Of a DNA stretch of 28,651 nucleotides, positions 5,308-7,007 are shown in pieces (within the stretch, counting starts at the first letter, position 1; each line of letters begins with the position of its first letter). The translations under genes and the position numbers were made by a program. This DNA comes from a virus, in the IMG/VR virus record IMGVR_UViG_3300021962_004831, positions 1 through 28,651 of that record; one strand, 5' to 3'. The notes beneath the pieces are model-generated. The model was not told the origin of the DNA, made no database searches, and saw only the letters and a list, made by a program, of their open reading frames with translations.

Positions 5308-5351
5308 CCTATGTTGCTATGAATAATAATTAATAACAAAAGGTGTTTGAA

Positions 5352-5774
5352 ATGATTGAACGAGATAATTTCTTTAGCATTGATTATCCCGGGTACCAAC
5401 CATTAGAAATTTTGTTAGAAGATCCTGAAAACTTTTTAAAAATCAAGGAAACTCTTTCACGTATTGGTGTGGCCTCTAAAAAGGACAATACATTGTATCA
5501 GTCCTGTCACATTCTTCACAAGCAAGGCAGATACTTCATTACTCATTTTAAGGAGTTATTTGCTTTAGACGGTAAGGATGCTGACTTTATGGATAACGAT
5601 TTAGAAAGAAGAAATACAATTGCAAAGCTATTACAGGATTGGGGACTATTAAAGATCGTTACTACTTTAGGTGAAGATGCATATAGTCCTTTGAGTCAAA
5701 TAAAAATTATATCATACAAAGAAAAAAGTGAGTGGAACCTTGTCCCAAAATATAATATCGGGAAGAAGCGCTAA
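5352..5774 (+). CDS. regA: RegA translational repressor
   Basis: 140 residues from ATG 5352, chosen because AAAAGG lies 8 nt upstream; a GTG nine bases earlier is less likely. The core matches T4 RegA clearly: DPENFLKIKETLSRIG, LYQSCHILHKQGRY, ITHFKELF and the C-terminal EWNLVPKYNIG. RegA binds ribosome binding sites of early mRNAs, including its own in T4, and blocks translation initiation. The protein carries about 17 extra N-terminal residues relative to T4 RegA. It sits directly behind gp62 as in T4, and its 3' end overlaps the desaturase frame by 47 nt. Confidence 0.95.
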   Translation: MIERDNFFSIDYPGYQPLEILLEDPENFLKIKETLSRIGVASKKDNTLYQSCHILHKQGRYFITHFKELFALDGKDADFMDNDLERRNTIAKLLQDWGLLKIVTTLGEDAYSPLSQIKIISYKEKSEWNLVPKYNIGKKR

Positions 5775-6456
5775 TTTACAAACTAAGATACAGTTATTAT
5801 TTTTAATTGTATCTTGTTTCTTTTTATATAATTGGCCTTACAAAACAATAGTTTTGTTTTCTATTTTCTTTATTGTGTCTGGGTTTTTAGTATCTGGATT
5901 CTTACATAGATACTGTACACATAGGTCTTGGGATTGTCCAAGATGGTTAGAATGGTTTTTTGTATTGCTGACTTGTGCAGCAATGAGTGGACTGTGTATT
6001 ACGTGGGTTGCTTTACATAAAGATCATCACAGGTACACAGACAAAGAAGGTGACCCACACGGACACTATGCCGGTGCGTGGAATAACTTTGCGATATTTT
6101 CATACAATCCAACGAAAGGTTCAGCATCAAAATGGATGCTGAGAGATCCTTTGTACAGGATGCAAATGAAATATTATTGGGTATTAGTTATACTCACCGC
6201 CATGGTATGGATAAGTATTTTCGGATTGTTTAGTTGGATCCTGTTTACTACTACAGTTTTTGTGTGGCAAGTAAGCATAAACATGATAGGTCATAGTAGG
6301 GTTTATAAATCCGTAAACAGAAATCATTTTCTCGCTGCCTTATGGGGTGGGGAACTGTATCACAATGACCATCATAAAAATCCAATGAAAACTCGATTAG
6401 GAATGATTGACTTCCCATATTTTTTTATGATAAAATGGTTTGACAAGTATAAATAA
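5728..6456 (+). CDS. Membrane fatty acid desaturase
   Basis: About 242 residues with the three histidine boxes of acyl-CoA/acyl-lipid desaturases: HRYCTH (60-65), HKDHH (97-101) and HNDHH (212-216), plus a conserved NxxGH near 185-189. Four hydrophobic membrane segments lie at about 22-36, 39-58, 76-95 and 150-180. The enzyme would use a di-iron centre to introduce a double bond into fatty acyl chains in the host membrane. The start is uncertain: GTG 5728 lies inside regA, and the GGAAGAAG at 5760 suggests a later non-ATG start may be used. Its AT-rich composition suggests an acquired accessory gene. A late promoter motif overlaps its stop. Confidence 0.85.
   Translation: MSGTLSQNIISGRSANLQTKIQLLFLIVSCFFLYNWPYKTIVLFSIFFIVSGFLVSGFLHRYCTHRSWDCPRWLEWFFVLLTCAAMSGLCITWVALHKDHHRYTDKEGDPHGHYAGAWNNFAIFSYNPTKGSASKWMLRDPLYRMQMKYYWVLVILTAMVWISIFGLFSWILFTTTVFVWQVSINMIGHSRVYKSVNRNHFLAALWGGELYHNDHHKNPMKTRLGMIDFPYFFMIKWFDKYK
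6448..6455 (+). promoter_or_regulatory. T4-type late promoter of hsp20
   Basis: Exact TATAAATA overlapping the desaturase stop codon. T4 late promoters start about 13 nt after the first T, which puts the transcript start near 6461, exactly where a GC-rich hairpin begins. The resulting leader of about 100 nt before hsp20 is unusually long for this compact genome. Confidence 0.6.
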
Positions 6457-6459
6457 AAG

Positions 6460-6556
6460 GCCCCCGTAAGGTGAAGTACATTATATATGATACCGAGCGG
6501 GAGGCACCACTACGCCGATAGGGTAGTGTAACATTAAAACTCGCTTAATAAAGGAG
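6460..6556 (+). ncRNA. Candidate ROSE-like RNA thermometer in the hsp20 leader
   Basis: Three successive hairpins can be drawn by hand. Hairpin 1 pairs 6460-6466 with 6498-6505, leaving A6502 bulged. Hairpin 2 pairs CACTAC (6508-6513) with GTAGTG (6523-6528). Hairpin 3 pairs CTC-G-CTT (6540-6546) with the ribosome binding site AAGGAG (6551-6556), with an AATA loop and one bulged G (6543). The TCGCT at 6541-6545 fits the U(U/C)GCU anti-Shine-Dalgarno motif of ROSE thermometers, which control small heat-shock genes in proteobacteria. The ATG lies 7 nt after the ribosome binding site. The pairing is seen in the sequence; thermosensing is inference. Confidence 0.6.
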
Positions 6557-6563
6557 CACAATT

Positions 6564-7007
6564 ATGGTACGTAAGTATACAACAGCTAACATGGCTGAAA
6601 TTTTTGATAATGTAAGACCGTTTACTATAGGTTTTGATCGTTTGTTTGACAATCTTCATAATGTTTCGGAGATTCATAGTCCAAACTATCCCCCCTATAA
6701 TATTGTAGCAGATGACGATGAGCATTTCACTATTGAAATTGCTTGTGCAGGATTTGCTAAAGATGAATTTAATGTTCATTTACTTCCAGAGGGCAACAAG
6801 TTAATTGTCCAGGGCGTACAAGACCGAGGTGAGGATAAGAGAAAATTCCTACACAAAGGCATTGGAGCTCGTAACTTCACACATTCATTCGCACTTGCAA
6901 ATGATGTTGAGGTTGTAGATAGTGTTTACTACGATGGCATCCTTGAGATTACACTCAGGCGTGTTGTTCCAGATGAAATGAAACCAAGACAAATTGAAGT
7001 GAAATAA
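6564..7007 (+). CDS. hsp20: Small heat shock protein Hsp20 (alpha-crystallin family)
   Basis: 147 residues with the alpha-crystallin domain at about 45-140: PPYNIVADDDEHFTIEIACAGF, then KDEFNVHL, KLIVQG, and the C-terminal DGILEITLRR strand. The core strand order and the GxLxxxxPR-like region fit the IbpA-type family. Hsp20 proteins are ATP-independent holdases. Such genes are common in marine T4-like phages and may help virion protein folding or protect infected cells. The leader carries a late promoter and a possible RNA thermometer that masks the AAGGAG ribosome binding site. The next gene follows after 9 nt. Confidence 0.92.
   Translation: MVRKYTTANMAEIFDNVRPFTIGFDRLFDNLHNVSEIHSPNYPPYNIVADDDEHFTIEIACAGFAKDEFNVHLLPEGNKLIVQGVQDRGEDKRKFLHKGIGARNFTHSFALANDVEVVDSVYYDGILEITLRRVVPDEMKPRQIEVK

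Follow-up and report, generated by a model that had tools for sequence, protein, structure and literature searches.

The hsp20 gene of the phage fragment analysed here raises the question of whether its 5' leader is a regulatory RNA and, in particular, whether it could open on warming and so adapt the supply of a viral chaperone to temperature. The window, i.e., the whole stretch of 28,651 nucleotides that was analysed (IMG/VR record IMGVR_UViG_3300021962_004831), is a fragment of a T4-like phage with genes for a sliding clamp, a clamp loader, a DNA polymerase and UvsX. On its + strand, hsp20 (6564..7007) encodes a small heat-shock protein of the IbpA class, of 147 aa (Pfam HSP20, E 1.9e-14; PHROG 432, Hsp20). 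A fatty-acid desaturase gene (5728-6456) lies directly upstream and ends at the putative late promoter, and the gene of the translational repressor RegA (5343-5774) is located two genes upstream of hsp20. A sequence-only reading of the window had proposed a late promoter followed by a leader of three hairpins, the last of which would close the ribosome-binding site as in the ROSE-type RNA thermometers, making Hsp20 output follow temperature during late infection.

The letters and coordinates given for the promoter element TATAAATA (6448-6455), for TCGCT (6541-6545) and for AAGGAG (6551-6556) were all correct, and the ATG of hsp20 is at 6564. The element TATAAATA (6448..6455, + strand), a candidate T4-type late promoter by sequence match, overlaps the stop codon of the desaturase gene and is enriched in the window (8 occurrences vs 2.3 expected); judging from this match, the hsp20 transcript would start at about 6461. 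Other copies were observed 5-38 bases 5' of gene starts, at positions 1204, 5300, 16162, 20705 and 27823 of the window, and such further copies near gene starts are probably late promoters. Among the leaders selected by protein, [ACT]TAAATA was present upstream in 35 out of 71, and the type of promoter varies among the relatives, being either TAAATA-type late or TTGACA/TATAAT-like (L033-L035, L042, L203; several by eye). The leader is thus kept when the promoter type changes, and any tie of the regulation to late infection is putative, given the sigma70-like promoters of some relatives.

RNAfold returned exactly the last hairpin that had been described, with CTCGCTT (6540-6546) paired with AAGGAG: over 6540-6556 the predicted structure is (((.(((....)))))), in which the anti-SD strand CUC[G]CUU (6540..6546), carrying the U(U/C)GCU motif, is paired across the loop AATA (6547..6550) with the Shine-Dalgarno sequence (SD) AAGGAG (6551..6556), leaving G6543 bulged; the pairing of the SD is also part of the covariance model R1 described below. 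This hairpin II is preceded by an unpaired linker (6529..6539), which in the comparison of leaders is variable in length and sequence, and by a stabilising hairpin I (6508..6528; CACTAC[G]CC-GATA-GG-GTAGTG), identified by R1 and by covariation and containing a bulged G at 6514. The remaining hairpin, the 5'-most one (6461..6504), is predicted by RNAfold but is missing from most relatives and falls outside the conserved element; the proposed three-hairpin leader is therefore reduced to two conserved hairpins. All these features are on the + strand. A role of hairpin I as a terminator was considered and dropped, since in the relatives a U-run is generally not found 3' of it.

The fold alone is weak evidence, because the folding energy of the whole leader is only mildly unusual when compared to shuffled sequences (z -1.9) and many ribosome-binding sites of the AT-rich window are predicted to be closed; neither the folding energy nor the computed opening of the SD separates hsp20 from the other genes of the window. 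It is conservation, not the fold, that raises the leader above chance. The computed opening of the SD increases with temperature to an extent similar to that in the Salmonella-type ROSE_2 control (L210); without its bulged G, hairpin II is predicted to be more stable, going from -3.0 to -6.8 kcal/mol. The melting of the hairpin predicted near 65 °C by nearest-neighbour calculation is not physiological, as is also the case for the ROSE controls, and is not taken as evidence. Folding in silico is compatible, and only compatible, with an SD closed in the cold and opened by heat.

Since blastn with the locus as query found nothing similar among named phages, relatives were sought through the protein. 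Single Hsp20 queries (from S-PM2 and L045) retrieved close relatives only, while a query made of an alignment reached further, and 80 viral loci were collected through Hsp20 protein similarity. Their leaders show a hairpin of the form stem-GCC-loop-GGG-stem followed by ACTCGCTTAATNNAGGAG or a close variant, within flanks that differ. The covariance model R1 was built from 23 leaders, with the window and its close relatives excluded, and on hairpins of equal length; a MAFFT alignment of 70 leaders of mixed length had misregistered the loops and the SD. In the window, R1 matched 6508-6556 with 41.4 bits and an E-value of 2.8e-12, which is to be read as rough owing to a shortened calibration, and the next best match scored 6.2 bits. 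The element was found in most of 91 loci, directly 5' of hsp20 or of a small gene heading its operon, and 68 of the 80 loci that a distant query added have it as well; among isolates, R1 matched 9/9 leaders of a first set and 9/12 of a further one. By inspection, the leaders of S-TIM5 and PA5oct are divergent versions, and hsp20 of Vibrio phage PWH3a-P1 (L447) is without the leader. The element occurs in cyanophages, pelagiphages and a methylophage, with relatives from both ocean and lake. That this phage encodes an element of its own was thus borne out as to its presence; it is not peculiar to this phage, the family spanning many others.

The source of the leader was sought in bacteria with strict filters, which may miss copies: R1 gave few and weak matches in 114 gammaproteobacterial and 10 selected genomes, the best ones being near 25 bits (a Serratia ibpB-like leader and the leader of one Rhodospirillaceae sHsp gene), and so did ROSE_3 in 115 alphaproteobacterial and 14 control genomes, under the same kind of filters. 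No bacterial source of the phage leader was traced in these searches.

A comparison of leaders from related phages, suggested as a check of the reading, provided the main evidence that the element acts as RNA. In hairpin I, changes on both sides were observed in 7 of the 8 pairs, and the covariation score was 0.51, compared with 0.145 for shuffled and at most 0.14 for slid versions; the alignment used is biased in favour of the model, having been fitted to it, and a smaller MAFFT alignment agrees. Of 66 protein-selected leaders, 60 had the bulged G in the 5' strand of this hairpin, compared with 2.1% in shuffled sequences, and many leaders have loops of the UUCG or GNRA type. Hairpin II, one strand of which is the SD, is nearly invariant in its canonical register. 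Lack of its conservation in related phages had been named as an outcome that would count against the reading, and the opposite was seen: of 73 non-redundant leaders, picked on the basis of the Hsp20 protein alone so as to avoid selection by motif, 66 had a helix covering the SD with a single bulged G in its 5' strand, compared with 5.6% of shuffled upstream sequences. The helix search demands three lower pairs, so that pairing in 66/66 is partly by construction and the shuffle rate is the fair control. Moreover, several clades have a shifted register with compensated pairs, namely AGAC[G]CUU/GAGGUCU, AUAAC[G]CUU/GAGGUUAU and AGUC[G]CUU/GAGGACU, and in cyanophage S-TIM5 (L455), in which the SD is AAGGTGG (GGUG), a compensating change has made the anti-SD strand CAC[G]CTT. 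In hairpin I of this phage the sequence is wholly different, but a bulged G is kept.

The element is associated with hsp20 even when gene content is ignored. Viral contigs were scanned for CTCGCTTAATN{0,4}AGGAG without regard to the genes present, yielding at least 120 sites; among the 120 listed, hsp20 followed within 1.5 kb downstream at 106 and directly 3' at 87, whereas the same scan of cellular genomes placed 2 of 119 sites before hsp20. Judged by these scans, the anti-SD/SD motif specifies hsp20 in viruses and not in cells. At the loci selected by protein, the anti-SD pattern was found in 41 of 51 hsp20 contexts and before 8 of 136 other genes, 7 of these 8 being a small gene at the head of the hsp20 operon. 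This gene, of about 70-90 aa (MLxxINTAIDSFQGxKTxFVKTFV...), often occupies the first position of the operon and bears the leader in place of hsp20 (L055, L056, L062, L067, L070, L079, L086, L087, L099 and others). Its product had no PHROG match (one member searched) and no significant Pfam match (two members searched), and looks phasin-like by eye only. In the phage contig L147 the two-hairpin leader precedes both hsp20 and dnaK, and has thus been reused for a second chaperone; on the gene contexts seen, the element is tied to chaperone genes. The cluster in question (L147:2361-5698) contains dnaK, hsp20, clpS and a heme oxygenase gene.

How close is this leader to the known thermometers? As in the ROSE elements, UCGCU (6541-6545) pairs imperfectly with AAGGAG in the 3'-proximal hairpin, a stabilising hairpin is present upstream (the class has two to four hairpins in all), and the position is the 5' leader of a small heat-shock gene. 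The proposed ROSE-type class therefore held as regards the SD helix with its bulged G, the stable hairpin before it and the sHsp gene, but the scores remained under the Rfam ROSE cut-offs. At the gathering threshold, Rfam gave no match in the window. Among the Rfam ROSE models, whose use on the window had been recommended, ROSE_3 (RF02523) was the best match, both for the window and for several phage leaders, and lay in register, but reached 18.2 bits in the window and 18-34 bits in the phage leaders against a gathering score of 43, the highest phage score tested being 34.1 bits, in Methylophilales phage Melnitz-3. ROSE_2 (RF01832) had no match in the window up to E 10, and in one phage leader (L452) it reached 26.2 bits against a cut-off of 65. 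The search itself works, since the Salmonella-type ibpA of the positive control L210 scored 100.4 bits with ROSE_2. Four consecutive U opposite the SD, as in fourU thermometers, were not found in the anti-SD strand CUCGCUU. Because the scores are below the cut-offs, we call the leader ROSE-like and assign no Rfam ROSE family; by its sequence features it is a distinct, phage-borne variant outside these families. The control L210 comes from a record named 'Campylobacter phage A11a', in which an enterobacterial-type IbpA accompanies the ROSE_2 element; its ibpA is probably host contamination of an unverified record.

Comparison with individual systems sharpens this placement. In the ROSE_3 consensus, too, the first hairpin contains a bulged G and the SD is preceded by ACUCGCU, while both hairpins of the phage leaders are shorter and the scores sub-threshold. 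In ROSE_2 of E. coli and Salmonella-type ibpA, CUCGCUGA pairs with UCAGGAG leaving a bulged G, and in the L210 copy the penultimate hairpin has a bulged G as well, but the sequence is too distant from the phage leaders for a match. The ROSE-like thermometers of Pseudomonas ibpA (Krajewski et al. 2013, PMC3669281) match the layout of the window in every feature visible in sequence: they consist of two hairpins, of which the first is stable and the second places U(U/C)GCU across from the SD. In these, hairpin II alone melts, between 25 and 42 °C, and in P. aeruginosa single-nucleotide deletions in the anti-SD strand, including G39, hold the element closed (PMC3669281). Unlike them, the element described here is phage-borne, is placed under phage late or sigma70-like promoters and has a short helix II, of 6 pairs in the window. 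RNA thermometers of phages are already known from lambda cIII (PMC4166951) and from the fourU of SPbeta blyA (PMC10586365), which also put phage genes under temperature-dependent RNA folding; their structures and genes are unrelated, translation of lambda cIII decreases at high temperature (PMC4166951), and neither represents a leader of chaperone genes maintained throughout a group of phages.

On these grounds we consider it likely that the 5' leader of hsp20 contains, at 6508-6556, a ROSE-like element that is carried by the phage, controls translation and is opened by warming. The sequence itself displays the position, the two-hairpin fold, the conserved bulged Gs, covariation in both helices, a near-exclusive association with hsp20 and the spread among T4-like phages of cyanobacteria, Pelagibacter and Methylophilales. 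A stable bulged-G hairpin I would be followed by a weak bulged-G hairpin II pairing with the SD, so that the hsp20 mRNA would be poorly translated until hairpin II opens; by analogy with Pseudomonas ibpA, warming would open it and Hsp20 output would rise with heat. Titration of Hsp20 onto misfolded proteins may relieve the repression too, or instead. Conservation of the leader in many related phages makes it probable that these viruses, like their host bacteria, adjust the production of the chaperone to heat or protein stress. Some points count against the heat reading: the predicted opening of the SD is slight even at 47 °C, no temperature experiments on such phage leaders were found in the literature, and lytic marine infections experience little temperature change.

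In the open-access literature, which does not cover most subscription journals, we found no earlier description of this leader family and no paper on the regulation of phage hsp20, and the papers on cyanophage sHsps do not mention the element. The gene belongs to the core set of T4-like cyanophages (PMC3037559), and an Hsp20 homologue is present in about 500 phage records; a conserved ROSE-like leader would therefore give some very abundant viruses a switch responsive to heat or protein stress, and whether warming of the host or protein damage alters the chaperone output of the phage becomes a testable question. ROSE-like elements, described mainly from alpha- and gammaproteobacteria, would be extended into phages infecting cyanobacteria, and the alignment offers dozens of diverged natural variants for structure-function work.

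The two bulged-G hairpins could instead be mainly an operator for the phage's own Hsp20, acting like IbpA, with temperature having an indirect effect: free Hsp20 would bind the leader and block translation, and Hsp20 occupied by misfolded protein would release it. We rate this as possible, with a probability somewhat below even, and on sequence grounds it appears as a serious rival of opening by heat or as its partner, in the form of a second layer. The precedent is E. coli IbpA, which acts on the 5' UTR of its own mRNA to repress it, and for which R93, R97, K98 and an aromatic residue at position 34 are required (PMC10474464). The phage system resembles it in having a ROSE-type leader and an Hsp20 of the IbpA class in which both the essential Arg and the aromatic residue are present: in the 148 Hsp20s whose genes bear the leader, the equivalent of R93 is Arg in all and position 34 is aromatic in all (R103 and Y42 in the window protein), while position 97 is Arg or Lys in 135/148. 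The window protein, whose RNA binding is putative, differs in having His and Ser at the equivalents of R97 and K98, and position 98 is rarely basic in the family; furthermore, R93 is general in proteobacterial IbpAs, and its conservation may reflect ancestry. In the leaderless PWH3a-P1 (L447) the Arg is absent, and in Pseudomonas phage PA5oct (L448), which has a weaker leader and in which clpS follows hsp20, it is replaced by Lys; these two cases, and only these, suggest that leader and RNA-binding Arg go together. The repetition of one bulge in two hairpins would be in keeping with binding by an oligomeric protein, and self-repression would suit lytic infection at a steady temperature, but in Pseudomonas heat melts the RNA alone in vitro (PMC3669281). 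The broader proposal that the tandem bulged-G leader is a virus-wide sensor of proteostasis, with phage Hsp20 binding its own mRNA, seems to us rather unlikely; if true, ocean viruses would gauge the misfolded protein in the infected cell and match the chaperone supply to it, and further chaperone genes, phage dnaK for example, would have acquired the leader.

Explanations in which the leader senses nothing, or is recognised by other factors, fare worse. It is improbable that it merely sets a low constant translation or protects the mRNA: stable 5' hairpins with UUCG and GNRA loops can stabilise mRNA, and occlusion of the SD is common in the AT-rich genome of the window, but a weaker SD would suffice for a constant low rate, and it would be left unexplained why both hairpins have a conserved bulged G, why SD helices are compensated and why the leader is restricted to chaperone genes. 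Repression of hsp20 by RegA through binding to the initiation region has very little probability in our view, even if regA is close to hsp20 in the window and in several cyanophages. RegA sites are short, unstructured and located around the start codon; they would not need two covarying hairpins, and the leader is kept where regA is not adjacent to hsp20. The conserved CTCGCTTAAT block might, finally, be a DNA operator of the promoter, as it is listed as a putative Pho box of S-PM2 hsp20, in the form of ATTCAAACTCGCTTAAATA upstream of this gene (PMC10976474). This reading we regard as practically negligible, and we rejected it, since the S-PM2 hsp20 fragment was not bound by PhoB in gel shift and low phosphate elicited no response of the gene (PMC10976474); moreover, the CTCGCTTAAT block sits just 5' of the SD within the leader and covaries with it as RNA. 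In Synechococcus phage S-PM2 (L209), ATTCAAACTCGCTTAAATA is the anti-SD strand of the RNA leader, which explains away the published false Pho box.
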